Shown piece after piece: positions 507 to 20,939 of a stretch of DNA of 24,244 bases; within the stretch, counting starts at the first letter, position 1; every line of letters begins with the position of its first letter. The notes beneath the pieces were generated by a model. That model saw only the letters and a program-made list of their open reading frames with translations. It searched no databases and was not told the origin of the DNA. The stretch lies in the IMG/VR virus record IMGVR_UViG_3300025102_000283, positions 1 through 24,244 of that record. One strand, written 5' to 3'. The position numbers and the translations under genes were made by a program. Source of the stretch: a virus.

Positions 507-1899
507 ACCGGGCGTAGACTTCCAGAACAATTGGCATGTCGATGCAATCAGCGATCACCTTCAGGCTGTTGTCGAGGGAGACATCAAACGACTGATCATC
601 AACGTGCCGCCACGCCACATGAAGTCGATCAGCGTGGCCGTTGCGCTGCCAGCGTGGACGTGGACCCATCAGCCACACAAGAAGTTCCTGTATGCCTCTT
701 ACGCAAGCTCTCTGTCGATCAGAGATAGCACCAAGTGCCGCCGACTAATCGATAGCCCTTGGTATCAGTCGCACTTCAGTGACAGGTTCGCGCTGACTGG
801 TGATCAAAACCAGAAGCAAAGGTTCGAGAACGACAGGACAGGATACCGCATAGCAACGTCTGTGGGTGGCGCTCTGACTGGTGATGGCGGTGACATCATC
901 TGCATCGATGATCCGCACAACGTAGTGGACAGCGACAGCTCCAAGGTGCGTGAGGGCGTTCTGGAGTGGTGGGATCAGGCGATGCAGACGCGGCTCAACG
1001 ATCCCCGCACTGGCGCATTCGTTATCATAATGCAGCGCGTCCATGAGCAAGATCTGACCGGGCATATCCTCTCAAATCAGCTTGGTGATGAGTGGGATCA
1101 CCTATGCCTGCCTGCCAGATACGAAATTGGTCACCCAACTCCAAGCCAGTCAATGCTGGGGTTCTCAGATCCACGCACAGAGGAGGGTGAGCTGCTCTGG
1201 CCTGAACGTATCGATGACAGGACACTATCAAACCTAGAGCGCAGCCTTGGCACTTACGCAGCGGCTGGGCAGCTCCAGCAGCGCCCATCGCCAAAGGGTG
1301 GTGGAATCCTAAAGGCGAGCTGGTGGGTTCCGTGGGAGAAGGAAGATCTGCCCGAAATCGATTACGTCTTGCAGTCGTATGACACAGCATTCGAGGCCAA
1401 GGAAAGTTCGAGCTTCAGCGCACGAACAACGTGGGGCGTGTTTAAACACAATGGCCACGATTGCGCTATTGTGCTTGAGTGTTGGTATGACAAAGTCAGC
1501 TATCCTGACCTACGGCGCTTGGCTCAAGAGGCATACGATGACTGGGAGCCCGACGCAGTGCTGATTGAGAAGAAAGCGTCAGGCCAGTCGCTCCTGCAAG
1601 ATTTACGCATGGCAGGCGTACCAGTTCTGGCCTACAGCCCAGACCGAGACAAGGAAGCTCGCGCCCATGCTTCGAGCGCACTTTTGGAAGATGGCAGGAT
1701 TTTCTTCCCTTCCAATCGAAAGTGGGCTAAAGATTTAATTGATATATGCGCGGCGTTTCCAGCACATCCGAATGATGATGTTGTTGATACATGCACACAG
1801 GCTTGGTTACGCTTACGCAGAGGATGGTTTGTTGGGCATAGCGAAGATCCCGATGATGACGATTTTGTAGAGACTAGAAGGATGACGATGTATGGCTGA
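391..1899 (+). CDS. Terminase large subunit (TerL), ATPase/nuclease
   Basis: The packaging motor that cuts concatemeric DNA and drives it through the portal. With the ATG at 391 it has 502 aa. The ATPase domain carries a variant Walker A, VPPRHMKS (residues 72-79, Lys78), and a Walker B, IICIDDPH, with acidic residues Asp173 and Asp174. The C-terminal RNase H-like nuclease shows acidic residues in the expected order: SYDTAFE (Asp331), VLIEKK (Glu393) and PNDDVVD (Asp462, Asp463, Asp466). I chose ATG 391 because an AAGG at 377-380 lies ten bases upstream; an in-frame TTG at 382 would sit only one base from that site. The start lies inside the small terminase gene, giving a 116-base overlap. 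The last eight bases overlap the portal start, so translation is probably coupled across all three genes. Confidence 0.95.
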   Translation: MNSAQLKELLSNLTLEQVRAEKYRRSLREFTKNAWPTIEPGVDFQNNWHVDAISDHLQAVVEGDIKRLIINVPPRHMKSISVAVALPAWTWTHQPHKKFLYASYASSLSIRDSTKCRRLIDSPWYQSHFSDRFALTGDQNQKQRFENDRTGYRIATSVGGALTGDGGDIICIDDPHNVVDSDSSKVREGVLEWWDQAMQTRLNDPRTGAFVIIMQRVHEQDLTGHILSNQLGDEWDHLCLPARYEIGHPTPSQSMLGFSDPRTEEGELLWPERIDDRTLSNLERSLGTYAAAGQLQQRPSPKGGGILKASWWVPWEKEDLPEIDYVLQSYDTAFEAKESSSFSARTTWGVFKHNGHDCAIVLECWYDKVSYPDLRRLAQEAYDDWEPDAVLIEKKASGQSLLQDLRMAGVPVLAYSPDRDKEARAHASSALLEDGRIFFPSNRKWAKDLIDICAAFPAHPNDDVVDTCTQAWLRLRRGWFVGHSEDPDDDDFVETRRMTMYG

Positions 1900-4360
1900 A
1901 CCAGAAAACATTATCCCATTTGCTGAAGGCGCTCCCGCCGACAATCTAATGATCGAAGAGCTGCCAGACGGCGATGTCCTGATTGGTGATCCAGAATTAG
2001 ACATGATGCAGGAAGTCGAGGACGCAGAGTTTGATCAAAACCTTGCAGAAGCAATCGATGAACGAGAGCTGGAGCGCAAGGCGCAAGAGCTGATCGAGTT
2101 CTTTGAGAACGATAAGGAAGCCAGATCTGAGTGGGAGCATCGCTACAAGCAGGGTCTAAAGACGCTAGACCCAGACGGTGGCCTTGATGAAAGCGAGGAT
2201 GAACGCGCAACTCGCGGTCTGTCCATCGTTATCCACCCACTAATCGCAGAAGCAGCAACCCAGTTTAACGCTCGCGCTGTCGCGGAGCTGTACCCATCAG
2301 GTGGTCCAGTCAAATCTGTCATTGTTGGTGAGCCAGACGAAAAAATGGAAGAGCAAGCTCGCAGGGTGCGCGAGTTTATGAATTACCAGATCACGCAGGA
2401 AATGCCTGAGTATTTCCCTGATCTGGACCAAATGCTGTTCCACCTTCCGCTGATCGGCCACACTTTCAAGAAGGTCTGGTGGGATGCCAACATGGATCGG
2501 CAGTGCAGCCAGTTCGTAAAGGCTGAAGATTTTGTTGTGGCTCCAGAGAGCAAGGATCTCTACACCAGCCCACGCTACACTCACGTCATCCGTATGCCGA
2601 AAAATGATTTCAATCGCTACGTCCAGAACGGTTACTATCTCCCGACAGCCTACATTGGTGATAGCATCGATCCTATTGATGACGTGATCGGAGAGATCGA
2701 AGGCGTCGATGAATACAGCGACAACAGCCAAGACGATGTGATGACGCTGCTCGAAATGCACGTCTATGATTTGTTCGAGGGCATCGATGGCAAAGAAATG
2801 GATAGCGATGAGGCAGACGAAAATGCTGTCGCCATCCCATATGTCATAACCATCGACTATGAAAACCAGCGCGTTGTCAGTGTTAGACGCAACTGGAAGC
2901 AAGACGATGAGATGAAGAAGCGCCGTGACTGGTTTGTGAGCTACAAGTTCTTGCCCGGTCTAGGGTTCTATGGCTTTGGACTGTACCACATGATCGGTGG
3001 CTTGGGCAAAGCAGCGACTGGATCGCTCCGCGCCCTACTCGACAGTGCCGCATTTGCAAACATGCAGGGTGGATTCAAATTGCGTGGCCGTGTCAATGGC
3101 GGCGATATGCAGATCAGCCCCGGTGAATTTGTGGATCTCGACAGTACAGTTGATGATGTCAACAAGGCGATCATGCCGCTGCCGTTCAAGGAGCCTTCGG
3201 GCTCTCTGTTCAATCTGCTTGGCTACATGGTTGATGCTGGTCAGCGATTTGCTAGTACGGCAGATCTCAATGTCGGTGACGTGAACCCCAACGCCCCAGT
3301 TGGATCTACAGTCGCTTTGATTGAGCAGGGGTCCAAGGCATTCAGCGCAATCCACAAACGGTTGCACTACGCGCAAGGTCAAGAGTTCAAGCTGCTGGCT
3401 GAATTGAACGCAGAGAATTTGCCTGATGAGTTCAGCTTTGCAAAGGTTGGAGCGGCAGATGTTATCTATCGCAGCGACTTTGATGATCGCATTGACATCG
3501 TGCCAGTGTCGGACCCGAATATCTTTTCTACAGCCCAGCGCATCGCACAGGCACAAGCTGTCTTGGAAATGGCGCGATCTGCTCCCCAGCTCCATGATTT
3601 GTATTCAGCATATAAGCGGATGTACGAAGCAATCCGCATACCAAACATCGATGAGATACTGAAGAAGCCAGAAGACGCTGTTCAGATGGACCCAATTGAT
3701 GAGAACATGAGCGTGATGTACGGCAAGCCAATCCGCGCATTCCCAGAGCAAGACCATGACGCGCACATTGCGGTTCACATGCAGTTCCTGCAAGATCCAT
3801 CACTGGCAGGCAACCCCGGCGCGAAGGCAATGCAGCCTGTGTTGATCGCACACATCGCAGAGCATATCGCGCTGCTGTATCGCCAACGCATGGCAGCAAG
3901 TGTCAATATGCCAATGCCTCCACTGCCCGATTTCAAAGAAAAGATGATCAAGTTCGAGGATGTAGATCCAGAGCAAGATCGACTGATCAGCCAACGCGCA
4001 GCGCAAGTTGTGGCTGCGTCACCTCAGATGAAGCAAATCGAGGCAATCCGAGGCATAGGTGCTCAACAGGGGCAGCAAGGAAATCCGTTGCAATACGCAC
4101 AAGAGCTGGCCAAGTTGGAGACAGAAGCTCTGAAGGCGAGAACCCAAGCCCAGATCGAAGCAGATCAGGCCAAGGCTCAGTCAAATATTCAGATCAAAGA
4201 GGCAGAGGCGCGTCAGGATATGGAGATCGACATGGCCAAGGCGCAAGCCGATTTGCAGGCCAAGGTCACCAAGCTAGAGGCAGAATTGCAGCTTGAGCGA
4301 GAAAAGAACGCAGCTAAAATCCAAATGGAGGCAATTAAAAACAATGTACCCCCAGTATAG
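1892..4360 (+). CDS. Portal protein
   Basis: An 822-aa protein forming the dodecameric ring at the unique head vertex through which DNA is packaged and ejected. The first 100 residues are highly acidic. The core (about 110-560) contains the patterns expected of large podovirus-type portals, including NYQITQEMPEYFPDLD, LIGHTFKKVWWD and AEDFVVAP. The last roughly 110 residues are a long uninterrupted helical region rich in Ala, Gln, Glu and Lys (from about QYAQELAKLETEALKAR onward). This resembles the C-terminal barrel or coiled-coil extension seen in P22-like portals. It follows TerL with an 8-base overlap and has an AAGG site at 1879-1882. Identification combines position, length and motif pattern; the family assignment within the portals is less certain than the role. 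Confidence 0.9.
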   Translation: MAEPENIIPFAEGAPADNLMIEELPDGDVLIGDPELDMMQEVEDAEFDQNLAEAIDERELERKAQELIEFFENDKEARSEWEHRYKQGLKTLDPDGGLDESEDERATRGLSIVIHPLIAEAATQFNARAVAELYPSGGPVKSVIVGEPDEKMEEQARRVREFMNYQITQEMPEYFPDLDQMLFHLPLIGHTFKKVWWDANMDRQCSQFVKAEDFVVAPESKDLYTSPRYTHVIRMPKNDFNRYVQNGYYLPTAYIGDSIDPIDDVIGEIEGVDEYSDNSQDDVMTLLEMHVYDLFEGIDGKEMDSDEADENAVAIPYVITIDYENQRVVSVRRNWKQDDEMKKRRDWFVSYKFLPGLGFYGFGLYHMIGGLGKAATGSLRALLDSAAFANMQGGFKLRGRVNGGDMQISPGEFVDLDSTVDDVNKAIMPLPFKEPSGSLFNLLGYMVDAGQRFASTADLNVGDVNPNAPVGSTVALIEQGSKAFSAIHKRLHYAQGQEFKLLAELNAENLPDEFSFAKVGAADVIYRSDFDDRIDIVPVSDPNIFSTAQRIAQAQAVLEMARSAPQLHDLYSAYKRMYEAIRIPNIDEILKKPEDAVQMDPIDENMSVMYGKPIRAFPEQDHDAHIAVHMQFLQDPSLAGNPGAKAMQPVLIAHIAEHIALLYRQRMAASVNMPMPPLPDFKEKMIKFEDVDPEQDRLISQRAAQVVAASPQMKQIEAIRGIGAQQGQQGNPLQYAQELAKLETEALKARTQAQIEADQAKAQSNIQIKEAEARQDMEIDMAKAQADLQAKVTKLEAELQLEREKNAAKIQMEAIKNNVPPV

Positions 4361-4637
4361 GCTCCCTCCAATTAATCCTGCTGCTTTTGGTGGATTGCCA
4401 CCACAGCAGGGTCCACAAGGTGGTCCCCCTGTGCCTTCTCCCGCGCAGGGTGGACCACAAGGTAACCCTCCAATGGATATGAATAAATATCTGATGAACA
4501 AAGTCGCAGAGATCCGCGAGAGGATGGGCGCTGGTGATATGGGTGCATTGAGTGCAATTGCAGACGCAATGCCACAACCACAGATGAATGTGGCAGCGCA
4601 GCCCCCACAACCACAGCCACAACAAAGGATGGGTTGA
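4344..4637 (+). CDS. Small Pro/Gln-rich protein of unknown function
   Basis: A 97-aa protein I do not recognise. The first 50 residues are low complexity and rich in Pro, Gly and Gln (for example GLPPQQGPQGGPPVPSP). A short predicted helix follows (NKYLMNKVAEIRERMGAGD), and the C-terminus is again Pro/Gln-rich (PPQPQPQQRMG). I chose ATG 4344 because GGAGG at 4327-4331 lies 12 bases upstream; an earlier in-frame TTG at 4293 lacks support. The gene begins inside the end of the portal gene (17-base overlap) and its stop shares a base with the next ATG, so it is probably translationally coupled to the portal. It could be a disordered virion component or an assembly helper; no function is assigned. 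Confidence 0.7.
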   Translation: MYPQYRLPPINPAAFGGLPPQQGPQGGPPVPSPAQGGPQGNPPMDMNKYLMNKVAEIRERMGAGDMGALSAIADAMPQPQMNVAAQPPQPQPQQRMG

Positions 4638-5053
4638 TGGACTACTGCTTACTTGGCGCTGTGATGGATTTGATCTTAAATGATCCGTACTACGCGAAGA
4701 AAAGCGTTTGGAGCCAGAGAAATTCTGTGTACTATGCAATTAAGCACGGTAAGTGTTTGGTCCATAGGGTGGATGGAAAAGTGGCAGGGTTTTGCGCCTA
4801 TGGATTTTTTACTCAGGAAGAGATAGACAGTGACTTGTGGAATGGAGATGAGGCGTATGCGCGGGAAGACGGAGAAGTTTTTTACTTCACTAAGTTCCAG
4901 TGTAGGCTTGGTTTCCGAGAAGTTATTAAGTTTGCTAGGGATGTTCGATTGGCTGTGTCAAAGAAATATCCTGAAAAAGAAATTGGGAATGGTGTGCGTA
5001 TATACCCAGACGGTGGCAGGCGCGATGAAAAATGGCATAGGAAAGTAGCATGA
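4637..5053 (+). CDS. Acyltransferase-like protein (HlyC/RtxC toxin-acyltransferase resemblance)
   Basis: A 138-aa protein with the overall pattern of toxin-activating lysine acyltransferases (HlyC family, GNAT-like fold). It has an N-terminal LLGAVMDLILNDPYY block, then a basic strand pair KHGKCLVHRVDGKVAGFCAY, then FFTQEEIDSDL, and finally a hydrophobic segment and a KKYPEKEIGNG C-terminus. In bacterial HlyC proteins a catalytic His lies in the early S/D-P-x-H block; here that place reads DPYYAKKS with no His, so catalysis by the classical mechanism is doubtful. Phage proteins of this general type next to portal genes are usually annotated as acyl- or acetyltransferases, but their substrate is unknown. 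ATG 4637 overlaps the preceding stop (TGATG) and has AAAGGA at 4624-4629. A divergent GNAT acetyltransferase is the main alternative. Confidence 0.55.
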   Translation: MDYCLLGAVMDLILNDPYYAKKSVWSQRNSVYYAIKHGKCLVHRVDGKVAGFCAYGFFTQEEIDSDLWNGDEAYAREDGEVFYFTKFQCRLGFREVIKFARDVRLAVSKKYPEKEIGNGVRIYPDGGRRDEKWHRKVA

Positions 5054-8999: not shown

Positions 9000-9167
9000 A
9001 TGCCAGCAAAAAAGCCAAAACGCGATGCATGTTATAGAAAAGTAAAGGCGCGGTATACGCGCAATGGTGGGACGTGGCCGTCAGCTTATGGGTCAGGAGC
9101 TTTAGTAAAATGCCGCAAGGTTGGCGCAAAAAACTGGGGTAAGAAAAGTGCCAAGAAAAAAAAGTAG
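9000..9167 (+). CDS. 55-aa basic microprotein with WPSAYGSGALVKCRK motif
   Basis: A 55-aa protein with 14 Lys and 5 Arg against one Asp. Its core ACYRKVKARY ... WPSAYGSGALVKCRKVGAKN is a pattern I recognise from tiny proteins in phages and large DNA viruses; no function is known for it. Two Cys (residues 11 and 38) and two Trp are kept in the motif, so this is a small folded unit and not a random Lys-rich frame. The ATG starts two bases after the preceding stop. Its 3' end overlaps the next gene by 20 bases and contains a run of eight adenines (9156-9163). Confidence 0.78.
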   Translation: MPAKKPKRDACYRKVKARYTRNGGTWPSAYGSGALVKCRKVGAKNWGKKSAKKKK

Positions 9168-9399
9168 CAGCAGCGATAGCTTACGCAAGTGGTTTGGCCG
9201 CAATAAGGGCAAGGGCTGGGTTAATTGCAAAACAGGTGGCCCATGTGGTAGGTCTGATCGTACTAAGGGTGGCTACCCTGCGTGTCGGCCAACAATGGCG
9301 CAATGCAAAAGTAAATCGGCTAAGTCAGCGGCTAAACGCAAGACATCAGCCAAGCGTGTAAACTGGAAAGGCAAGAAAAGTGGTAAAAAAAGCAGTTGA
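9148..9399 (+). CDS. 83-aa basic four-cysteine microprotein (DUF5872-like)
   Basis: A very basic protein (18 Lys, 8 Arg, 2 Asp) with the core KWFGRNKGKGWVNCKTGGPC and then GGYPACRPTMAQCKS. Four Cys (27, 33, 46, 53) could coordinate one zinc ion. The pattern resembles small proteins of phages and nucleocytoplasmic large DNA viruses with a CGR ... YPxCxP signature, which I tentatively place near DUF5872. The tail is Lys/Ser-rich with KRVNWKGKK. I chose GTG 9148, preceded by GGGGTAAG, over the upstream TTG 9121, which gives a 92-aa version. It overlaps both neighbours by 20 bases. Confidence 0.75.
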   Translation: MPRKKSSSSDSLRKWFGRNKGKGWVNCKTGGPCGRSDRTKGGYPACRPTMAQCKSKSAKSAAKRKTSAKRVNWKGKKSGKKSS

Positions 9400-9633: not shown

Positions 9634-10343
9634 TGGCTGGTCTTGGTGCATTAGGCAGATTAACAAAATCTCTGGGACGTGAGCTGGTTGGCTTCCAAGT
9701 TCGTTCAAACCCAAAGATTGAGCAGCTCGCAAAAGATTCTGCTATTGACCCTAAGAAGCTAGAAGACGCCTCTCCAGAAGCTCTAGCAGAGTTTCTGGAT
9801 AGAGCTGCGCGTCAGAGGCTAATAGACCCTAGAAGGGCTAATAGCATAAAGATACAGATTATTAAGGATGAGCAGGAGGTTGTTCCAGATGTTCCTAAAC
9901 TTCGAGTGGACAACCCCGGCGGTGATTGGCTGGCAGGAAAGTTAAGACGCGCACTAGAGAAACGTCAGAGCGCAGAGCCAAATACCTATCAGTCTACTTT
10001 GGGGTCTGGAGAAGGGGTCACAGGATACTTCAAAGAGCCAATTCGCCTTAATCCAAAAATGCTTTCTAACATAGCAGGATCTGTCGGTGAAGAAACATAC
10101 AGGCCAGATCCAGCAAAAATGCGGAGGTTGCGCGATTCTATTGCAGAGACAGGCTACGATGAATCGCCAATCTTGATCCAAGTGCGCGAAGATGGTGTGC
10201 CGTTTGTGGTTGAAGGCAATCACAGGATCATTGAGGGCGTTGAGAGTGGCAGGCCAACTATACCAGTCGAGATCAAATACCTTAGAGGCGCAGAGGATGT
10301 TGATGGTCCACTTAGCCCAGTAGCTTTAGGAGTACCGAGGTAA
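9633..10343 (+). CDS. ParB-like nuclease-domain protein
   Basis: A 236-aa protein. The C-terminal half carries a ParB/sulfiredoxin-like domain: DPAKMRRLRDSIAETGYDES (about residues 159-178), then PILIQVREDGVPFVVEGNHR with the signature EGNHR at 194-198, then IIEGVESGRPTIPVEIKYL. In ParB this region binds CTP; in related phage and plasmid proteins it can be a nuclease or another nucleotide-dependent enzyme. The N-terminal half is charged and helical (PEALAEFLDRAARQRL) and of unknown role. It has no HTH centre-binding domain, so a partitioning function is unlikely. Its place among virion genes, and between basic microproteins, suggests a polyvalent or ejected effector rather than a plasmid partition protein. 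It shares one base with the genes on both sides (TAATG). Confidence 0.78.
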   Translation: MAGLGALGRLTKSLGRELVGFQVRSNPKIEQLAKDSAIDPKKLEDASPEALAEFLDRAARQRLIDPRRANSIKIQIIKDEQEVVPDVPKLRVDNPGGDWLAGKLRRALEKRQSAEPNTYQSTLGSGEGVTGYFKEPIRLNPKMLSNIAGSVGEETYRPDPAKMRRLRDSIAETGYDESPILIQVREDGVPFVVEGNHRIIEGVESGRPTIPVEIKYLRGAEDVDGPLSPVALGVPR

Positions 10344-10600
10344 TGGCAACGTACAAAGGCAAAAAAGTATCGCTGAATAAACCGCGCCGTATTTCCAAGG
10401 GCGAGACATCTTACGGCAAAAAAAAGTCTGTGGTCTATGTGAAGGATGGCGACAAGGTAAAGCGCGTGACCTTTGGCGATCCCAAGATGACCATTAAGAA
10501 GGCTCAGAAGGGGCGTCGATCTAACTTTAGGGCGCGTCATAACTGTGATAACCCCGGCCCCAAAACTAAGGCCAGATACTGGTCATGTAAGGCGTGGTGA
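10343..10600 (+). CDS. 85-aa basic microprotein (FRARHNCDNPGPKTKARYWSCKAW motif type)
   Basis: An 85-aa basic protein. The C-terminal half contains VTFGDPKMTIKKAQKGRRSN, FRARHNCDNPGP and KARYWSCKAW. This is a highly conserved small-protein signature I recognise from phages and giant viruses and do not connect to a known function. Two Cys (68 and 82) flank the Pro/Gly turn and may bind metal or pair. The N-terminal half is a Lys-rich strand-forming segment (KKSVVYVKDGDKVKRV). The ATG overlaps the ParB-like stop (TAATG), and the next gene starts one base after this stop. Confidence 0.82.
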   Translation: MATYKGKKVSLNKPRRISKGETSYGKKKSVVYVKDGDKVKRVTFGDPKMTIKKAQKGRRSNFRARHNCDNPGPKTKARYWSCKAW

Positions 10601-10601
10601 T

Positions 10602-13600
10602 ATGGCAGATAAAAGTTTCCCCGAAGGTGCGTTTCTTCCAGATGGACAGCCCAATATTCCATCACAGGCGTATGCTGATTACTTAAAAGAAATCAATCCA
10701 ATGATGGTTCCAGTCGCAGATCCAGAAGGATATGTTGCGCCACCGCGAGATACCAGTGAAAAACCCTTTAGTAATTATGCCTTTGATAAGGCGTTTGACA
10801 CAGCCACTGGGGCTGGCAGAAGTTTTAAAAATGCATTCACAGGCCAAGGTGTGGCTCAGTTAATGCCAAAAATGCAGTTTTACCCCGGCGGTCCAACTGG
10901 AGCCGAAAAAATCTATGGTGGCGCAGCAGATGTGGGCTTGGGTGTACTCTCAACCGCCCTTGCTGGGCTAGAAGCTGGAGCTGGGTTTATAGCCGAGAGA
11001 ATTCCATTCCAGAATGAAAACCAAGAAGATAGGCTTTCTAGAGATCTTTTGGGTGGTATAGAGTTCTTAGAGCAATATACCGCGCCATATCTTGGACTGT
11101 TTAGTAAAATAGGAAGAGCGTCTAAAGCTGCTACAACAGCCAACAGAGCGCCTGAACCACCAGTGTCGGTTGCGCCTGAACCAGAAATTACAATAGCGCC
11201 TACCCTTTCAGGTGGGACATCACTCACAGACGCTATAACAGCAGCACAGGCGGCTGAACGTGCAAATCGGCTACCAGATGAACTTACAGACGCAGAAATG
11301 GATGCCGCTTTTGAAGATATCATTGATGATATCATTCAAGAGGAAACAGATCCAGAAGTTCTAATAAACAACGCCTTGCTGGAGCGCGAGGCAGAGCGTT
11401 CAACAGTCTTTACTCCCGAAGACCAGCAAATCTTAGATGATTTAGAGCTTATAGATTCTGATTTTAGCGAAATAGATGAAGCCAATGCTGATTATGATCG
11501 CATGTTAAATGAGCGCATTGATATAGCACTCGACAGTAGCCCAGAGTATCAAGATCCATCTGTTCGATTGGGTGTGCAAAATCTTAGAGAATCAGGTCAG
11601 CCCCCAAGAGTGATTGAAGAGTATTTAGCTGGCATAAAAAAAGATCAAGAACCAGTATACCAAATTTCAGATGCTCGATATGCTGACCAATTGCGTGATC
11701 TGTACGAAAGAAATAATCTACCGATACCCAAGAATGACGCAGAAGAGCGCGCAGCGGATCTTATAATTCAAGTCGCTGCTGGCGAAGATATGAGCGCGTC
11801 TTTGCGCCGTGGTGTCGATCTTGCTTACCTTAAAGCCAATGCTCCAGAAGAAGTCTTCAACCAAGCAAAGCCCACAATTCAAGAAACGCTTGAGACTGAG
11901 AGGCAGTACGGCGTACTTAATGATATAAACGTGGATCAAGATACAGACATAGGCGCTTTGACAGGGGCTTTTGGTTTTTATAATAAATATCCCCCTATTT
12001 TTAGCCCATCGATGAAAGCAGCAGAACGCCTTCCCCAAGAAAAGGGCGCATATAACGATTTAAAGAAATGGATGTTAAAGAATGGCGCTAAAGCTAAAGA
12101 GCTAGAATGGTCTGGAGCAGATGAGGCTTTTGAAGGTCGAACAGACGTTACTAAGGATGAATTAATCCAATACCTCAATGATAATAAAGACTTAGTGGAA
12201 GCAGAAAGAAAAGTTGCATATGGTATTTTGAGGGGAGAAGGTGGAGACACCAGAATGGCCGAAGAGGAATACATAGACAGCGCTCTTGATTTTGAAATCG
12301 AAGAGCATCGAAATATGTTTTTAGAAAATTGGCAATATAATAATAATATGGAGAGCATAGAAGATTATGTCGCTTCAGAAAATATAGTTCCCTTAGATAG
12401 ATTAATAAATCAAATTGATGGCATTGATACCGTAGAAGAATTAATCGAAAGGTTTCCAGAAGGATATATTGACGATAGAGACCCCTTGACTGGCTTTCGT
12501 CGGGTCTTTGAAGATGCAGATGAAGCATCTGAATTTGACTTAGATCATAACGCTTCTTATATCGAAGAAAACGCACGTCAATCATTACGAGAATATATAG
12601 ATGAGATGGAGTCATATGATCCAGAGCAATATGGTAGAATGATTTTCGGTGACGATGCAGCGCCTGCTGATACAAGCGAACTAGAATACACAAAATATTT
12701 TCCATCAGGCGGCACTGATACAGCGGAAACCACATATCAATTCAGAGATCCGACAGGCAAACTGCCTGACGATTATTTTAGTGAAGATCACTTTGGTGAA
12801 AGTGGAAGAGACACAAACTTAGTTGCTCACGCCAGAACAGCAAAATTTCCTGTTAAGAGTGGCGGTACAGCATTTCATGTTGGAGAAATGCAATCTGATG
12901 CCGCTCAATCTCTCAGAGAGAAAAACAAACGAACAGGCAAAGTTAAAAAATATTCTCCAAGAACTCGTGATGAAGAAATTCAACTTCAGGAATATGATTA
13001 TTTATCTCGCGAACTTCACTATGAGGTAAGACAATCTGAAAATGATCTAAATAAGATTATTTTTGATGATGATATTAGTATAACTGCTCCGGCCCGAAGG
13101 GAGGAACATCCAGAAAAACTTGAAACTTATAGAACAATTATTGCTGATTTTAAGAACTATAACGAATACACTAATTCATATGGTGACAAATGGACGCCTA
13201 ATCACACGTTCTTTGGTGAGGCTCACGGCAATATTGATGATATGAGTTCAGAATTACAGTCGTTTGCTCAATATATTAAAGGTAGGCAAGGATCTATACC
13301 AGAGGAATACACCGCGTGGGCTGATTCCCATATTCAAAATACTATTCCCAGAATAGATGTCTTGTCTTCAGGTTTAAAAAGATTTGACAATCAAGATTTT
13401 TCAAGAAAAAGGACTGGCGCACCATTCATTGAAAACACAGATTCATGGGTCAATATGGTATTAAGGCGTCAGTTGATGGACGCGATTGAATCTGGGGTTG
13501 ATTATATCACCTTGCCAAACCCAGATATGGTAAAACAATATACCTTTGGAGATCTTGAGGGTCATCGGGCTTTCTATGGTGAAATTGCTCCAAGCAACTT

Positions 13601-13805
13601 ACTTGATATAGCTAAATCGTATGATCCAGATGCACAGCTAGTGGGCAAACTGATAGAAACATCAGAAGCAGTGGAGCCTGTTACGGCGCTGCCTTTAACT
13701 AGACGGCTTGTCGAGTCTATAATGGAAAAAGGCATCCCCACATATGCCGTCCCAATAGCAGTTGGTATGGGTTATGGTGCGCTAGATGAGCTAGGAGAGA
13801 AATAA
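10602..13805 (+). CDS. 1067-aa polyvalent-type protein, probable virion/ejected protein
   Basis: The largest protein in the window, acidic overall and of unknown activity. Two segments match modules I know from large phage polyvalent proteins. The first is KKWMLKNGAKAKELEWSGAD with VTKDELIQYLNDN (about residues 488-528). The second is a split module with NLVAHAR, FHVGEMQSD (Glu762, Gln764, Ser765, Asp766) and later GAPFIENTDSWVNMVLRRQL to about residue 970. The family pattern is LxHxR ... EiQSD ... P-x-P-F ... W ... alkr. The end is hydrophobic and Gly-rich, AVPIAVGMGYGALDELGE, like that of the 462-aa protein. I chose ATG 10602, with AAGG ten bases upstream and immediate continuation from the preceding stop, over GTG 10545. 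It may be an internal head protein delivered with DNA. Confidence 0.7.
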   Translation: MADKSFPEGAFLPDGQPNIPSQAYADYLKEINPMMVPVADPEGYVAPPRDTSEKPFSNYAFDKAFDTATGAGRSFKNAFTGQGVAQLMPKMQFYPGGPTGAEKIYGGAADVGLGVLSTALAGLEAGAGFIAERIPFQNENQEDRLSRDLLGGIEFLEQYTAPYLGLFSKIGRASKAATTANRAPEPPVSVAPEPEITIAPTLSGGTSLTDAITAAQAAERANRLPDELTDAEMDAAFEDIIDDIIQEETDPEVLINNALLEREAERSTVFTPEDQQILDDLELIDSDFSEIDEANADYDRMLNERIDIALDSSPEYQDPSVRLGVQNLRESGQPPRVIEEYLAGIKKDQEPVYQISDARYADQLRDLYERNNLPIPKNDAEERAADLIIQVAAGEDMSASLRRGVDLAYLKANAPEEVFNQAKPTIQETLETERQYGVLNDINVDQDTDIGALTGAFGFYNKYPPIFSPSMKAAERLPQEKGAYNDLKKWMLKNGAKAKELEWSGADEAFEGRTDVTKDELIQYLNDNKDLVEAERKVAYGILRGEGGDTRMAEEEYIDSALDFEIEEHRNMFLENWQYNNNMESIEDYVASENIVPLDRLINQIDGIDTVEELIERFPEGYIDDRDPLTGFRRVFEDADEASEFDLDHNASYIEENARQSLREYIDEMESYDPEQYGRMIFGDDAAPADTSELEYTKYFPSGGTDTAETTYQFRDPTGKLPDDYFSEDHFGESGRDTNLVAHARTAKFPVKSGGTAFHVGEMQSDAAQSLREKNKRTGKVKKYSPRTRDEEIQLQEYDYLSRELHYEVRQSENDLNKIIFDDDISITAPARREEHPEKLETYRTIIADFKNYNEYTNSYGDKWTPNHTFFGEAHGNIDDMSSELQSFAQYIKGRQGSIPEEYTAWADSHIQNTIPRIDVLSSGLKRFDNQDFSRKRTGAPFIENTDSWVNMVLRRQLMDAIESGVDYITLPNPDMVKQYTFGDLEGHRAFYGEIAPSNLLDIAKSYDPDAQLVGKLIETSEAVEPVTALPLTRRLVESIMEKGIPTYAVPIAVGMGYGALDELGEK

Positions 13806-14044: not shown

Positions 14045-14131
14045 ATGAAGTATGGCAAAAAGAAACCTATGAAGTCTGTCAAAAAGAAGGTAATGAAGAA
14101 AAAGGCGAAGCCTAAAAAGAAGGGGTACTAA
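14045..14131 (+). CDS. 28-aa Lys-rich microprotein
   Basis: Of 28 residues, 15 are Lys; the start is MKYGKKKPMK and the end KKKGY. ATG 14045 has an excellent AAAGGAGG site just upstream. An in-frame GTG at 13997, directly after the preceding stop, would give a 44-aa form with an extra N-terminus containing ASFSSLMSKGG. In that form the strong ribosome site would lie inside the gene. I favour the short form because of the ribosome site, but both may be made. Function is unknown; the next ATG follows the stop directly. Confidence 0.6.
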   Translation: MKYGKKKPMKSVKKKVMKKKAKPKKKGY

Positions 14132-14263
14132 ATGCCAGAAACAAAAAATGTTGAAGTTCACGTTACTGGTGTTTCAATGTCAGGAGCTGTGAAAGATGAC
14201 AACAAGCGATCTGCTCCAACAGATCAGAAAAAATCTGGAGAAAAGGCGGCTAGAGATAGCTGA
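14132..14263 (+). CDS. 43-aa hypothetical protein
   Basis: A short open frame starting immediately after the preceding stop, with AAGAAGGGG about ten bases upstream. The sequence begins with a likely beta segment (NVEVHVTGVSMSGAVK) and ends polar and Lys/Asp-rich. Its last 68 bases are also used, in another frame, by the 65-aa gene downstream. I know no family for it. Its support is tight packing and a plausible ribosome site, so it may be a real microprotein or a leader that couples translation of the next gene. Confidence 0.42.
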   Translation: MPETKNVEVHVTGVSMSGAVKDDNKRSAPTDQKKSGEKAARDS

Positions 14264-14393
14264 AGATATGGTTGATGGCCGCATGACGGACATCAACGCA
14301 TACCACAAAAACGTAGGGATCGCAGAGGGTCTAATGCAAGCCTCTGAGGTTATCCGCGAAACATTGAAAAAATTAAACGAAGAGGATGTATAG
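14196..14393 (+). CDS. 65-aa helical protein conserved in marine phages
   Basis: A 65-aa, mostly helical protein: TSDLLQQIRKNLEKRRLEIA, EDMVDGRM, AYHKNVGIAEGLMQASEVIR. The pattern DLLxxIRxxL ... DxxVDGR ... YxxxVGxxxGLxxAxxVI is one I recognise from many phage structural modules, where it lies just before head genes. No function is established. ATG 14196 has AGGAG at 14182-14186 at good spacing. It starts inside the preceding small frame and its last eight bases overlap the ATG reading of the GroES-like gene. A small assembly chaperone or regulator is possible, but this is not shown. Confidence 0.8.
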   Translation: MTTSDLLQQIRKNLEKRRLEIAEDMVDGRMTDINAYHKNVGIAEGLMQASEVIRETLKKLNEEDV

Positions 14394-14799
14394 CGTGTCT
14401 CATCAACATGATCGAATATTTACAGATGAAGAAACCAATGCCACTATTGGATCTCATCAATTACCAGTTCCCTTGAACTGGAAAGTTTTAGTTCAGCCAA
14501 ATCAGGCAAAGACAAAAACATCAGGTGGAGTTCTTCTGCCAGAATCATCCAAAGATAACGAAGAATATCTAACAGCTCATGGAACCGTGTGTGCCTTGGG
14601 TGACTTAGCGTATCGTGACAGAGATACAGGCCAACGATGGCGGTCTGATGTATCTCCAAGGGTTGGAGATCGCGTGACCTATGGTAAATACGCTGGTCAG
14701 AAACTTGTTGTAAAAGGCGTCAAATTCCTTCTGCTGAACGATGATGAAATCACATCGATCTTGCCAGATGGTGTTGAAGTCGCAGCATATGTGGGGTGA
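14386..14799 (+). CDS. GroES-like co-chaperonin (Cpn10)
   Basis: A 137-aa protein with the Cpn10 pattern. PLNWKVLVQPNQAKTKTSGG corresponds to the first strand and the start of the mobile loop. GGVLLPES follows, with hydrophobic tripeptide V49-L50-L51 in the place of the GroES Ile-Val-Leu that docks on GroEL. Then come GTVCALG, VGDRVTYGKYAGQKLVVKGV and FLLLNDDEITSIL. Known phage co-chaperonins (T4 gp31, RB49 CocO) cap host GroEL to fold the capsid protein; its place directly before scaffold and capsid genes fits that role. An insertion (YRDRDTGQRWRSDVSP) sits between the loop and VGDRV. The start could be ATG 14386 or, with better ribosome-site spacing (AGAGG at 14381-14385), GTG 14395; the latter gives 134 aa. 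No GroEL gene lies in this window. Confidence 0.87.
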   Translation: MYSVSHQHDRIFTDEETNATIGSHQLPVPLNWKVLVQPNQAKTKTSGGVLLPESSKDNEEYLTAHGTVCALGDLAYRDRDTGQRWRSDVSPRVGDRVTYGKYAGQKLVVKGVKFLLLNDDEITSILPDGVEVAAYVG

Positions 14800-14804
14800 T
14801 TGAT

Positions 14805-15701
14805 ATGGCAGAAAAAGAACAAATTCTGGAAGAAATCGAAGCCGAAATTCAAAAAGCTAAAGGTGAACCAGAAGATTTTGAAATAGAATTGGTCGATGAG
14901 CCAGCCCAAGAAGCTAGGGAAGAAGCAAAAGATCAGGCCGAAGCGAAAGAAGATGACTATGGACCAAAAGTTCAGAAGCGTATTCAAAAGCTAGTCGGTC
15001 AACGTCGAGAAGCTGAAATCCAAGCTAGGCAAATTCAGGAGCAGAATGAGCAGCTCCAGAAACGTCTGTCGCGCTTGGAGCAGGGATCTCAGCAAAACGC
15101 AGAGAAGGCGTTTAATCAACGCTATAACCAAACAAAAGCAGCCTTGCACAAGGCTGTTGAGGAAGGTGACACAGACGCTCAAGTATCGTTCCAAGAGCAA
15201 ATGGCCGACATGAGAGCTGCTATGCGTATTGCCGAAATGCAGAAGCAACAAAATCAACAACGTGCGGCGGCTTCGCCTACGGTGGGTCGAGCGCAACAAG
15301 CTGCACAAAACCCAGCACCACAAAAAGCTATGCAGTGGTGGCAAGCCAATAACTGGTTTAACGCTCAAGGTTTCGAGCGCGAAACAGCGGCGGCACGTTC
15401 AATTGATGTTCAGCTTGACCTAGAAGGTTATGACAAAAATTCTGACGAATATTATCATGTTTTAAACAACCGTTTACAAAAAATGTTTCCTGAGATATCG
15501 TCAGAGCCAAGTCCTAGTAAGGCAAGAACGAAAAGTAGACCACCAGTCGCCCCAACTACAGGCGGTTCTTCCAACTACAAGGGCAATAGAGTGAGGATGT
15601 CGCAAGAACAACTCAGAATGGCTAGAGAGCTTGGAATCAATGATGAAAAAGGTCTTAAAAAATACGAAGCCGAAATTCGGCGTCAACAAAGGAGCCAATA
15701 A
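14805..15701 (+). CDS. Capsid scaffold protein
   Basis: A 298-aa, very polar protein likely to direct prohead assembly and then leave the head. The N-terminal third is acidic (EEIEAEIQKAKGEPEDFEIE). A long Gln/Glu/Arg-rich coiled coil follows (KRIQKLVGQRREAEIQARQI and on, about residues 55-155). Then come a Trp-containing segment (MQWWQANNWF) and a basic C-terminus (KGLKKYEAEIRRQQRSQ), where scaffold proteins usually contact the capsid protein. Position two genes before the decoration and capsid genes supports the call. I chose ATG 14805, which has GGGGTGAT upstream, over the in-frame GTG 14796. No protease motif was seen, so a scaffold-protease fusion is unlikely. Confidence 0.78.
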   Translation: MAEKEQILEEIEAEIQKAKGEPEDFEIELVDEPAQEAREEAKDQAEAKEDDYGPKVQKRIQKLVGQRREAEIQARQIQEQNEQLQKRLSRLEQGSQQNAEKAFNQRYNQTKAALHKAVEEGDTDAQVSFQEQMADMRAAMRIAEMQKQQNQQRAAASPTVGRAQQAAQNPAPQKAMQWWQANNWFNAQGFERETAAARSIDVQLDLEGYDKNSDEYYHVLNNRLQKMFPEISSEPSPSKARTKSRPPVAPTTGGSSNYKGNRVRMSQEQLRMARELGINDEKGLKKYEAEIRRQQRSQ

Positions 15702-15703
15702 TA

Positions 15704-16186
15704 ATGTCTGAGAAAAGAAATGTTCGCGCAAACGAAGCTCGCAATTCCGTGCGTGATGAGGAATCTCGTCCCATGACGGCATGGAAACCACCATCACTTT
15801 TGGATGCACCCGAAGCACGTCCCGGTTATGTTCAAAGGTGGGTAGCTACCTCGATTCAGGGTAAGGATAGCCCAGACAACGTATACAAACGTATGCGTGA
15901 AGGATGGGAACCGCGCCCTGCTGATACTGTGAAAAGTAAGTTGTTTCCAACTATCAATCACGGCCAGTGGGCAGGATCAATTGGAATTGAAGGCATGTTG
16001 CTCTGCGAAATGCCAGAAGAAGTTCATGTTCAAAAGCAGAACTACTTTTCTGGTAAAAACGAAGAGCTTAATGAGTCAATTGCAGGAGATCTTGATGCGT
16101 TAGGACGGCGAAGTGGACAACCAATCTATCAAGAACGGAAGTCTGAAATCAGTCGTGGCAGATCTCTTTCTGCCGCAAGCGACTAA
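15704..16186 (+). CDS. Conserved head-module protein
   Basis: A 160-aa protein between scaffold and decoration genes. The segment RPMTAWKPPSLLDAPEARPG, followed by YVQRWV, QGKDSPDNVYKRMREGWEPR, is a strongly conserved pattern (RPMxxWxPPxxLDxPxxxPGxxxRWVR ... NVxxRxxEGWE) that I recognise from phage structural modules just upstream of capsid genes. Its precise job is not established. An assembly or minor head role is inferred from the position. The C-terminus (ISRGRSLSAASD) is basic and flexible. The gene starts two bases after the scaffold stop. Confidence 0.78.
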   Translation: MSEKRNVRANEARNSVRDEESRPMTAWKPPSLLDAPEARPGYVQRWVATSIQGKDSPDNVYKRMREGWEPRPADTVKSKLFPTINHGQWAGSIGIEGMLLCEMPEEVHVQKQNYFSGKNEELNESIAGDLDALGRRSGQPIYQERKSEISRGRSLSAASD

Positions 16187-16209: not shown

Positions 16210-16761
16210 ATGGCAAATGCAGATGCAGCCTTTGGGTTTGTCCCAGTTCGTCACATGAGCGGTAATGCACCTCGCACTAACCAATACACCATCACAAGTG
16301 GTCTTGCAGAAAACATCTTCACAGGTGACCTTTGCATCCTCACAGCAGATGGCGTTGTTACTCCACATTCGGCAACGGAAGTGAATAACATTGGTGTTTT
16401 TGCGGGTGTGTCTTACACAGCAAGTGACGGTTCTTACGTCTATAGTGAATACTGGCCGTCAGGCACAGTAGCTACTGACATCATCGCATATGTATATGAT
16501 GATCCATATACTGTGTTCAAAGTTCAGTCAGCGGGTTCCCCTGCTCAGACCAATATCGGCAACTGCGCCGATGCTGTTGCTGGGGCTGGGTCCACAACGA
16601 CTGGTCAATCAGGCTTCGAAATCAGTGGAACAATGGCGGCTGGCGCTGCTACTTGTAAGCTGATTGCATTGGTGGATTCACCAGAAAATGCATTCGGGGC
16701 TAACGCTGTCATGGAAGTGCTTATCAATGAGCATCTTCTTAAAGACAGTGCTGGCATCTAA
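16210..16761 (+). CDS. Probable head decoration/cement protein
   Basis: A 183-aa, beta-rich protein beginning ANADAAFGFVPVRHMSGNAP, with YTITSGLAENIFTGDLCILTADG soon after. This start is typical of a capsid-associated protein family common in marine phages and located directly before the major capsid gene. A high content of Gly, Ala and Thr, little charge and no signal peptide fit an outer-surface capsid-stabilising protein. AAAAGGAG at 16196-16203 gives strong translation, as expected for a protein made in many copies. An alternative is a minor capsid protein; the next gene is the better candidate for the major subunit. Confidence 0.72.
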   Translation: MANADAAFGFVPVRHMSGNAPRTNQYTITSGLAENIFTGDLCILTADGVVTPHSATEVNNIGVFAGVSYTASDGSYVYSEYWPSGTVATDIIAYVYDDPYTVFKVQSAGSPAQTNIGNCADAVAGAGSTTTGQSGFEISGTMAAGAATCKLIALVDSPENAFGANAVMEVLINEHLLKDSAGI

Positions 16762-16775
16762 GGAGGGTATAAACA

Positions 16776-17675
16776 ATGGCTATGAATAGAGCAAATTTTG
16801 CTAAAATGCTTGAGCCGGGTCTGAATACTCTTTTCGGACTCGAATACGACAGCTATCCAGCCGAGTATGAGGCAGTTTTTGAATCAAACACTTCACAAAA
16901 AGCGTTTGAAGAGGACGTCCTCTTATCCGGTTTTGGAAATGCTCCAACAAAATCAGAGGGTTCTGCGGTTTCTTATGACGCAGCCTCTCAACAGTGGACT
17001 GCGCGTTATCAGCACGAAACAATCGCTTTGGCTTTCTCAATCACTGAAGAAGCTGAAGAAGACGGCCAGTATGGTTCGATTGCTTCTCGCTACACAAAAG
17101 CGTTGGCTCGCTCAATGGCCTCTACTAAAGAGATCAAAGCAGCTAACATTTTGAATACCGCGACAACTGTGAATGGTGGTGATGGCGCTACTCTTTTGAG
17201 TGCATCACACCCAACACAGGCTGGAAACCAGTCTAACATTTTGGCGACACCAGCCGATTTGTCTGAAGTGTCACTTGAAGCAATCCTTATTCAGATTGCT
17301 GACATGAAAGATGATCGCGGTCTTCGCGTTGCAGCGCAGGGTACGCAGTTGGTTATTCCAACAGCTTACACTTTTGTTGCAGAGCGTTTGCTGGAATCTC
17401 AGCTTCGCACTGCTACTGCTGACAACGATATCAACGCGATTCGTCAAGGTGGGTATCTCCCAAAAGGCTACCACATTATGCGCCGTCTAACAGACAGCGA
17501 TCAGTGGTTTGTCCAAACGGATATTCCTGATGGTCTGAAAATGTTCCAACGCTCGCCTATGAAAAAAGGCATGGAAGGTGACTTCGAAACTGGCAACGTG
17601 CGCTACAAAGTTCGTGAGCGTTACAGCTTCGGTGCTACTGACTGGCGTGGGGTCTTCGGATCACAAGGCGCTTAA
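16776..17675 (+). CDS. Major capsid protein
   Basis: A 299-aa protein with the layout of Mu gpT-type (HK97-fold) major head proteins. It has an N-terminal arm (MNRANFAKMLEPGLNTLFGL), an extended E-loop-like region (YDSYPAEYEAVFESNTSQKA through YDAASQQWTARYQHETIALA), then SITEEAEEDGQYG and a long helix (KALARSMASTKEIKAANILN). The peripheral/axial core follows (GTQLVIPTAYTFVAERLLES) and the end is KVRERYSFGATDWRGVFGS. A near-perfect AAGGAGG lies directly upstream, and an intrinsic terminator follows the gene. Both suit a highly expressed coat protein. A second ATG at 16782 is an alternative start. The fold assignment is by pattern; a structure prediction would settle it. Confidence 0.9.
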   Translation: MAMNRANFAKMLEPGLNTLFGLEYDSYPAEYEAVFESNTSQKAFEEDVLLSGFGNAPTKSEGSAVSYDAASQQWTARYQHETIALAFSITEEAEEDGQYGSIASRYTKALARSMASTKEIKAANILNTATTVNGGDGATLLSASHPTQAGNQSNILATPADLSEVSLEAILIQIADMKDDRGLRVAAQGTQLVIPTAYTFVAERLLESQLRTATADNDINAIRQGGYLPKGYHIMRRLTDSDQWFVQTDIPDGLKMFQRSPMKKGMEGDFETGNVRYKVRERYSFGATDWRGVFGSQGA

Positions 17676-18709: not shown

Positions 18710-19390
18710 ATGGCAACTTCAGGAACCGTGGCGTTTCAACCAAATGTCGAAGAAATCATAACTGAAGCATTCGAGCGTTGCGGTATTGATACCCAAACTC
18801 AAACTGGTGACAAGGCTGTGTCTGCGCGGCGCAGTCTCAATCTACTCTTCTCTGAGTGGGCTAATAGGGGTATAAACTATTGGGCTGTAGAGCAGCAGAC
18901 CTTGACGCTTGTTAATGGAACGTTGCAATACACACTGCCAGTGGGAACGATTGATATCATCGATGCTGTGATCCGCGATACCTCTGGAACAGATACGTCT
19001 GACCAGACCATAAATCGTGTATCGATTGCAGATTATAATCAGCTTCCAAACAAAAATTCTGGCGGTAAGCCAAGCCAGTACATGCTTGATAAGCAATACA
19101 CACCTGTCGCATATTTTTGGCAAGTTCCAGATAAGACAACATATAGTATGGTGTACTGGGCGATCAGGCAGCTTGAGGATGTCACGGCATCAAATCAAGA
19201 TCCAGATATTCCATATCGTTGGAATGAATGCATATGTGCTGGTCTTGCAAGTAAGTTGGCAATGAAATTTGCAGTTGATAAATTTAATATGTTAAATGAA
19301 ATGTATGAAAGATCATTTAGCTTTGCAGCAGCGTCAGACAATGACGGTGTATCTCTGAGGGTTCAGCCCACTGCGCTGAATTTATATTGA
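18710..19390 (+). CDS. Head-to-tail adaptor (P22 gp4-like)
   Basis: A 226-aa protein resembling the P22 tail accessory factor gp4, which binds under the portal, seals the DNA-filled head and opens the way for tail parts. The helical N-terminal segment EEIITEAFERCGIDTQTQTG, then ARRSLNLLFSEWANRGINYW, matches the typical start of this family. The middle is beta-rich (LQYTLPVGTIDIIDAVIRD, a YWAIRQLED strand), with a C-terminal helix pair (ICAGLASKLAMKFAVDKFNM). An AGGAG site precedes the ATG. Its position after the capsid genes and before tail genes fits. The next gene's ATG shares the last A of its stop (TGATG). Confidence 0.85.
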   Translation: MATSGTVAFQPNVEEIITEAFERCGIDTQTQTGDKAVSARRSLNLLFSEWANRGINYWAVEQQTLTLVNGTLQYTLPVGTIDIIDAVIRDTSGTDTSDQTINRVSIADYNQLPNKNSGGKPSQYMLDKQYTPVAYFWQVPDKTTYSMVYWAIRQLEDVTASNQDPDIPYRWNECICAGLASKLAMKFAVDKFNMLNEMYERSFSFAAASDNDGVSLRVQPTALNLY

Positions 19391-20316
19391 TGGCAAAATA
19401 CGCAAGAGGCAAAAAATCCCAAGCGATTAGCGACAGAGGCGGTCTAAAGGTTCCATATACGGATCTTATGACTACTTGGGATGGCCTTCGCGTGTCTCCA
19501 GACGATTGGGAGCCAAAACAACCACAGCTCACACCCGCTAAAAATGTTGTCGATGCTACGGCACTTTTTAATCCACGCCCAGATACAGACCCCGAAAATG
19601 CAGAGGTATTTATAGGGTACAATTTTGACTTCTTCACACCCATACAAGACCGCCCTCCAGTGGGCATACATGGGCTTGGTGTTGTGTCTCATGGGTCTGT
19701 ACTAGAAATGGACGTTTCAGTCACTGGCGTGGCTGGTACAGGCGCTGTGGGGACAGTCTATCCAAACCCTGATATCAATCCAGCAGTCGGCACAGGCGCA
19801 ATTGGTGATTTTGAATTAGTAGTGTCTCTTGATGTAAACGTCACCAGTGCTATTGGTACAGGCGCTCTAGGTGTATTTGCTACGGCCACAACTACTGCTG
19901 GGGTATCTGGCACAGGAGCAATTGGGACTGAAGTCCCAGAATCTGAAATTGAAGAAACAGGCGTGGCTGGTACAGGTGCAATTGGAACTTACACAGTAGA
20001 AAATGTACTAACTGCTACAAGTGCAATTGGAACAGGAGCGACAGGCACTGAGACAGCAGTATCTGAAATATCAGTATCTGGTATATCTGGCACTGGATCT
20101 GTCCATGTGATTGGAACTGGTGCTGGTAGTGACTTTAATCTTATTGTTGGCCCAATAACTGGATTGGGCGGCGTAGGAACGACAGGCAGCGAGGTTGCAG
20201 AAACTGAAATATCTGAAACAGGTTTAGCTGGTACAGGCGCAATAGGATCTGTAGATCCAGCAGTTGGGTGGGGCAACAACGCTTGGGGCAATGGAACATG
20301 GGGTAATGGAATATGA
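19390..20316 (+). CDS. Repeat-rich virion structural protein
   Basis: A 308-aa protein. Residues 1 to about 75 form a conserved domain (SDRGGLKVPYTDLMTTWDGL, PKQPQLTP, FNPRPDTDPEN) that I recognise from marine phage structural genes of unknown role. From about residue 110 to 290 it consists of nine or ten degenerate units centred on GTGAIGT (for example GVAGTGAIGT, SAIGTGALG), 15-25 residues apart. It ends with WG-rich repeats, WGNNAWGNGTWGNG. This build suggests a rigid beta-structured spike, fibre or baseplate-like part of the short tail. The start is ATG 19390, overlapping the adaptor stop. No enzyme motif is visible. Confidence 0.75.
   Translation: MAKYARGKKSQAISDRGGLKVPYTDLMTTWDGLRVSPDDWEPKQPQLTPAKNVVDATALFNPRPDTDPENAEVFIGYNFDFFTPIQDRPPVGIHGLGVVSHGSVLEMDVSVTGVAGTGAVGTVYPNPDINPAVGTGAIGDFELVVSLDVNVTSAIGTGALGVFATATTTAGVSGTGAIGTEVPESEIEETGVAGTGAIGTYTVENVLTATSAIGTGATGTETAVSEISVSGISGTGSVHVIGTGAGSDFNLIVGPITGLGGVGTTGSEVAETEISETGLAGTGAIGSVDPAVGWGNNAWGNGTWGNGI
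19726..20250 (+). repeat. Degenerate in-frame GTGA[IVL]G repeats
   Basis: Nine to ten copies of a short unit with core Gly-Thr-Gly-Ala-hydrophobic-Gly, spaced irregularly (about 45-75 bases apart). They are diverged at the DNA level, so they look ancient and kept for structure, not freshly expanded. Confidence 0.8.
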
Positions 20317-20939
20317 ATTACACACAATTAGTATCAAACATTCAAAACTTCATGGAAGATGATAGCGCAGAGTTGTCAGCATCTATTGATCAGATTATAG
20401 AGCAGGCCGAAGAAATGATTTTTCAACGGTTACCTAATTTACCTTGCTTTAGAAAAAACGCATCAGCAGCTCTGGTGCAAGGCACAACGGATTACACTGT
20501 TCCGTCTGCAAGGATGATCAGACAAGTTTCTGTTATTACCGCAAATGTGACAGCATATTTAAATCACAGAGTAGATTCATATGTGCGTGATTACTGGCCA
20601 AATGCCACAACTCAAGGCGTTCCAGAGATGTATAGCACTAAAACAGCGGCGATTGGCGGCACGACTTTTACTGTTGCACCCACTCCAGACGCAACAACAT
20701 CAACTTATCAAGTTGATTTTATAGCCCCAGAAACTGGATTGAGTTCAAGTAATGCAAATACTTGGATTGGAGATAACGCAGAAAATGTGTTATTATCAGC
20801 GTGTCTTTACGAAGCATCAGCCTTTTTGAAGGCGGGTGAAACTTTGGCACTTTACAAGACACAATTTGACGAAGCAGTGCAATTATTTGTACAAGAGATG
20901 CAGCGAGACTACGCAGCAGAATATAACGGAGGTTTATAA
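20313..20939 (+). CDS. Conserved connector/tail protein, function unknown
   Basis: A 208-aa protein starting with a helical region (YTQLVSNIQNFMEDDSAELS, QIIEQAEEMIFQRLPNLPCF). A beta domain follows (VQGTTDYTVPSARMIRQVSV, LNHRVDSYVRDYWPNATTQG, STYQVDFIAPETGL) and it closes with helices (LLSACLYEASAFLKAGETLA). The order of helix pair, beta core and final helices recalls head-tail adaptors, and the protein recurs beside gp4-like adaptors in marine phages. I would place it at the neck or short tail, possibly as a second adaptor or nozzle part. It starts in an ATGA overlap with the repeat-rich protein and shares one base with the next gene. Confidence 0.77.
   Translation: MNYTQLVSNIQNFMEDDSAELSASIDQIIEQAEEMIFQRLPNLPCFRKNASAALVQGTTDYTVPSARMIRQVSVITANVTAYLNHRVDSYVRDYWPNATTQGVPEMYSTKTAAIGGTTFTVAPTPDATTSTYQVDFIAPETGLSSSNANTWIGDNAENVLLSACLYEASAFLKAGETLALYKTQFDEAVQLFVQEMQRDYAAEYNGGL

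Follow-up and report, generated by a model that had tools for sequence, protein, structure and literature searches.

A capsid-linked GroES co-chaperonin in an uncultured relative of Roseobacter phages CRP-901 and CRP-902, a probable lid for host GroEL

Among phage co-chaperonins the textbook case is T4 gp31, which is needed because the T4 capsid protein is oversized. The 24,244-base viral record analyzed here, a marine phage fragment taken whole and called the window below, encodes a GroES-like protein directly before its scaffold-like and capsid genes, which raises the question of what such a lid might do for a phage with a capsid protein of 299 residues. The genes concerned are the following.

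382-1899, plus strand: terminase large subunit (PHROG 38, E 9e-94)
1892-4360, plus strand: portal protein (PHROG 1216, E 5e-34)
14196-14393, plus strand: conserved small helical protein of 65 aa directly upstream of GroES (weak PHROG 32603 match), with its stop codon just before the start at 14395
14395-14799, plus strand: GroES/Cpn10 co-chaperonin gene (PF00166 at 58.6 bits, PHROG 3188, PDB matches), 134 aa from GTG 14395 or 137 aa from ATG 14386
14796-15701, plus strand: scaffold-like protein, charged and probably coiled-coil (PHROG 28737), same position in relatives
15704-16186, plus strand: conserved head-cassette protein (PHROG 36003), same order in relatives
16210-16761, plus strand: conserved head-cassette protein (PHROG 37556), same order in relatives
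16776-17675, plus strand: major capsid protein, 299 aa, presumed main chaperonin client (PF25209, PF10124, PHROG 371)

This arrangement, which runs from the portal through the ~65-aa protein, GroES, the scaffold-like protein and two small genes to the major capsid protein, is that of the CRP-901/HTVC023P-type phages and is repeated in CRP-902, HTVC023P, 023Pt_psg01, Caulobacter RW, HTVC027P and DSL-LC04. GroES also lies between the portal and scaffold-like genes in Alcaligenes QDWS535, Planktothrix Pag-Yong1 and several groundwater phages, and the cassette order is common to phages of Roseobacter, SAR11, Caulobacter, Alcaligenes and cyanobacteria. In relatives a ~65-aa helical protein usually stands immediately ahead of GroES, with the capsid gene following at a distance of about 2 kb; a homologue of the 65-aa protein is found directly 5' of GroES in 205 of the 209 loci with such an ORF. 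This small protein carries a D-x-x-x-Y ... G-x-x-x-G type motif, and neither Pfam nor the PHROGs gave a usable name for it. The place and composition of the 14796-15701 product suggest a scaffold role, and the portal and adaptor types, together with the classification of relatives, point to a short-tailed phage; the text of the CRP-901/902 paper describes no morphology.

Inspection of the remaining window yields several separate observations. The head-tail adaptor appears to be duplicated, since two separate genes (18710-19390 and 20313-20939) each hit PF24175, the SU10-type adaptor family. The product of 19387-20316 carries repeated GTGAIG-type units, has no Pfam match and probably forms a tail or fibre component built from repeats. 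Small, very lysine-rich proteins are encoded between the portal and GroES at 9121-9399, 10343-10600 and 14046-14132 (about 28 aa), the first two of which have no Pfam match. No toxin gene was seen near 4634-5053, whose 139-aa product resembles the HlyC acyltransferase family below cut-off (19.7 versus 25 bits) and probably belongs with the GNAT-like acyltransferases. Also between the portal and GroES is a gene of more than 1,000 aa (10545-13805) without a Pfam match, and the corresponding stretch of CRP-902 holds a shorter gene called a nuclease.

The open frame at 14386-14799 (plus strand, 137 aa) encodes Cpn10. Its match to Pfam PF00166 scores 58.6 bits against a cut-off of 21.1 and spans profile positions 4-92 of 93, with an E-value of 6e-16 that excludes chance as the source of the assignment. 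The frame also matches PHROG 3188, 'co-chaperonin GroES', and draws fifteen weaker NCBIfam matches, all below their own cut-offs and all except one carrying the GroES name. Profile matches and solved GroES, Hsp10 and Cpn20 chains in the PDB cover residues 28-126. The AlphaFold2 model (mean pLDDT 78; 65-67 in the mobile loop) is predicted to contain both the GroES beta-barrel and the mobile loop, and its best Foldseek matches in the PDB are GroES/Hsp10 lids inside chaperonin complexes (E 2.9e-8, probability 1.00, TM-score by target about 0.65-0.81). The Cpn10 pattern recognized by the sequence-only reading is therefore confirmed by Pfam, PHROG, NCBIfam, PDB sequence matches and the AlphaFold model. 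That is to say, this is a genuine Cpn10/GroES co-chaperonin gene. It is under strong purifying selection, with a median dN/dS of 0.08 among close relatives (55 comparisons with dS > 0.2).

The reading frame proposed earlier stands, but its start is better placed at GTG 14395 than at ATG 14386, such that the gene probably spans 14395-14799 and encodes 134 aa. This preference rests on codon conservation, on annotation and on a short upstream sequence: among 80 close relatives, the codon equivalent to GTG 14395 is ATG in 44 and GTG in 36 without exception, whereas that equivalent to ATG 14386 is a TGA stop in 19; the CRP-902 GroES annotation starts at the 14395 equivalent; and AAGAGG lies 9 bases 5' of the GTG.

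To describe the anatomy of the protein, loop lengths and spacings were counted in an alignment of 63 relatives clustered at about 78% identity. Three segments differ from cellular GroES.

14395-14463, plus strand: N-terminal extension before the Cpn10 domain, poorly conserved (mean conservation 0.34)
14506-14580, plus strand: mobile loop with the VLL docking tripeptide (GG-VLL at 14524-14538), then an arm with 4 residues more than its cellular GroES counterpart
14605-14667, plus strand: roof-hairpin segment between G72 and G94, with 21 residues versus the 17 of E. coli GroES

The extension places 28 residues ahead of P29, versus 4 in E. coli GroES; pLDDT is below 50 for residues 1-7 and higher from there up to P29. 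Further along, GG-VLL has the form of a mobile loop with a hydrophobic tripeptide suited to GroEL docking. The substitution of Val-Leu-Leu for Ile-Val-Leu, singled out by the sequence-only reading, is real but unremarkable: the first tripeptide position is I, V or L and the third L, I, F, M or V in 63/63 relatives, with the middle position free, and GG precedes it throughout apart from SG in two. What that reading missed is a 4-residue lengthening behind the tripeptide, which the alignment indicates is fixed across the phage family. The spacing from GG to G66 is 17 residues in all 63 relatives (17-18 in phage isolates) versus 13 in E. coli GroES, and four GroES sequences from rhizobia and sphingomonads have a 4-residue gap at the same arm site, as do the displayed PDB alignments. 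AlphaFold places a short helix at residues 53-61 within this arm, with moderate confidence. In contrast, the insertion of roughly 15 residues described earlier before VGDRV is absent; the stretch is a normal GroES roof hairpin plus 4 residues. The G72-G94 segment holds 21 residues, while the number between the matching glycines is 17 in E. coli GroES, 10 in T4 gp31 and 18 in most relatives.

The lid has no phage chamber beside it. No Cpn60 (PF00118) was found in the window, as had been noted from the sequence, and extending the search to 28 related records (26+2, of which 14 are whole phage records) again returned none, with all control genomes positive. Each of these 28 records encodes exactly one Cpn10. 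The pairing of a phage GroEL with an adjacent GroES, as in marine viruses and jumbo phages, was thus seen neither in the window nor in the 28 relatives. Because Cpn60 is missing from all of these, the phage protein must use host GroEL if it acts as a lid.

The strength of the association with the capsid gene was assessed in loci fetched via the capsid protein alone, with no selection for GroES. Among viral contigs that extend 3.5 kb or more ahead of the capsid gene, 39/39 carry Cpn10 upstream of it (median distance 2,047 bases), as do 58 of 60 loci from a genome collection (median 2,124 bases); in linked loci the distance is 1.8-2.7 kb. The organism titles in that collection are no evidence of host, since many of its loci are metagenome bins. 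The two loci lacking Cpn10 were rejected as true absences, both being broken before its expected place: L280 is a chimeric contig that turns into bacterial sequence within a head gene, and in L293 a scaffolding gap of 100 Ns precedes the scaffold gene. Across uninterrupted loci with this capsid type, Cpn10 is present ~2 kb upstream in 97/97, such that its position directly before the scaffold and capsid genes holds more strongly than was originally claimed. The loci were not dereplicated; those with both genes form 21 capsid clusters at 70% identity. Beyond this capsid range the link loosens. The distant relative MW202601 seemed free of Cpn10 until the gene was found outside the head cassette, and vir526 (BK063670.1, L095:1027-1383), with a distant relative of this capsid protein, has Cpn10 ahead of its terminase gene. 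The latter record is assigned to Methanomicrobiales, i.e., archaeal hosts, and lacks Cpn60.

We consider it probable that the phage Cpn10 is a lid for host GroEL that serves head-protein folding, most likely that of the 33-kDa capsid protein. Seven subunits would form the lid, their flexible loops docking the hydrophobic VLL tripeptide into host GroEL. Produced together with the late head genes, the lid would have as its main job the closing of the host chamber over new head proteins, most likely the major capsid protein, allowing enough of it to fold for procapsid assembly. We infer head-protein folding by host GroEL because the GroEL-capping features are kept, no phage chamber is present and the linkage is to one capsid type; we likewise infer host GroEL as the partner, the capsid protein as the substrate, the heptamer and late expression. 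Several points weigh against this explanation. The ordinary GroEL-GroES chamber has room for a 33-kDa capsid protein, co-location alone, in so compact a head operon, does not single out the capsid protein among the head proteins as the client, and Cpn10 sits outside the head cassette in MW202601 and ahead of the terminase gene in vir526.

The main rival holds that the protein is a general replacement lid, which swaps with or supplements host GroES to keep GroEL working or to favor phage proteins, and that it is encoded among head genes simply for the sake of late expression. Both gp31 and CocO are able to substitute for GroES in all essential E. coli folding (PMC3012670), and infection of SAR11 by HTVC027P, which carries GroES, down-regulates host chaperones and folding catalysts (PMC12753301). 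However, the same down-regulation is reported for HTVC022P, which is T7-like, belongs to another group and falls outside the gene-content comparison (PMC12753301), and the near-fixed place of Cpn10 ahead of one capsid type, across 21 clusters of that protein, argues for a head-specific need. We regard a general lid as unlikely. Less probable by far is that the protein acts outside the chaperonin cycle, as a component of head structure or assembly (for instance a ring or cement protein) that has the GroES fold. The location among head genes would suit such a part, as would an N-terminal extension of varying length and a lengthened arm that are absent from cellular GroES, but retention of the GroEL-docking motif in 63/63 sequences would be needless for a structural protein.

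The enlarged cage proposed by the sequence-only reading, in which a gp31-like lid makes room for an oversized head protein, is also very improbable. Folding of the T4 capsid protein needs gp31 plus host GroEL, which demonstrates that phages can require a lid of their own (PMC3012670), and gp23, at ~56 kDa, requires the larger chamber that gp31 makes without roof loops over its dome (PMC6318259). What recalls such a lid in the phage protein is that it exceeds E. coli GroES by 4 residues at each of two places. Inspection of the alignment nevertheless reveals neither a missing roof nor a longer loop ahead of the tripeptide: the roof is kept, the lengthening is on the other side of the tripeptide, identity to gp31 is about 16%, and the 299-aa (~33 kDa) capsid protein is far smaller than gp23. 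With the roof present, the wrong side of the loop extended and a small client, the enlarged-cage reading was rejected. gp31 is likewise a weak Foldseek match to the phage model (E 7.6e-3). Since a capsid protein of 33 kDa is no oversized client, the gene is more likely explained by the lid's surface, the kinetics of its loop or simply by supply.

If the capsid protein is the client, its size cannot be the reason, leaving lid surface, loop or supply to matter. A broader form of this proposal, that a supergroup of SAR11, Roseobacter, Caulobacter and cyanobacteria phages depends on a dedicated lid with the 4-residue arm to fold one capsid type through host GroEL, is put forward only tentatively and may well not hold; it would amount to a second route for phages to retool the chaperonin, distinct from gp31 and without a bigger cage. 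The interest of the locus lies in the shared loop lengthening and in the strict capsid link, by which, among phages that include some of the ocean's most abundant, a lid gene almost always accompanies a capsid protein of small size. HTVC023P-type phages account for about 7.6% of viromic reads (PMC12753301). A literature search, with the main virioplankton chaperonin paper outside its range, found no paper on a link between GroES and capsid folding in these phages.

Comparison with known systems places the protein apart from both cellular and T4-type lids. Bacterial GroES proteins, from E. coli and alphaproteobacteria, share the Cpn10 domain, a mobile loop with GG and a hydrophobic tripeptide, and the roof hairpin, but are only 26-30% identical and lack the 4-residue lengthening behind the tripeptide. 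Recent capture from a host was rejected, as identity to alphaproteobacterial GroES does not exceed that to distant phage relatives and the longer loop is common to the phage copies; bacterial contamination was rejected because a phage operon encloses the gene, which is also present in cultured phage genomes. T4 gp31 and RB49 CocO resemble the protein as phage-encoded lids of Cpn10 fold, with no phage GroEL and a tie to head assembly. In contrast, the roof region of gp31 is reduced to 10 residues versus 21 here, its longer loop precedes the tripeptide rather than adding 4 residues behind it, and its gene is not adjacent to the capsid gene.

The closest likeness is to phages in which the gene is already annotated, among them CRP-901/902, HTVC023P/027P, Caulobacter phage RW and others, so a phage GroES in a head module is not unusual. 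HTVC023P-type pelagiphages, Caulobacter RW, DSL-LC04, Pag-Yong1 and QDWS535 share the cassette order, a 17-18 residue arm and the lack of GroEL, at about 27-37% GroES identity; their roof segment is usually 17-18 residues in the HTVC phages and DSL-LC04, versus 21 here. GroES is among the 13 core genes of 82 HTVC023P-type genomes (PMC9599517) and is a standard, already annotated part of this large phage group. The CRP-901/902 paper presents GroES in its genome figure and likens the structural module to those of pelagiphages HTVC023P and HTVC027P (PMC10149686). In CRP-901 and CRP-902 the annotated co-chaperonin GroES (CRP902_gp61) occupies the same place before scaffold-like and capsid genes, with identities to the window of 92-95% for GroES and 96-98% for the capsid protein. 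The differences are at the sequence level only, and the phage studied here is an uncultured relative of these two.
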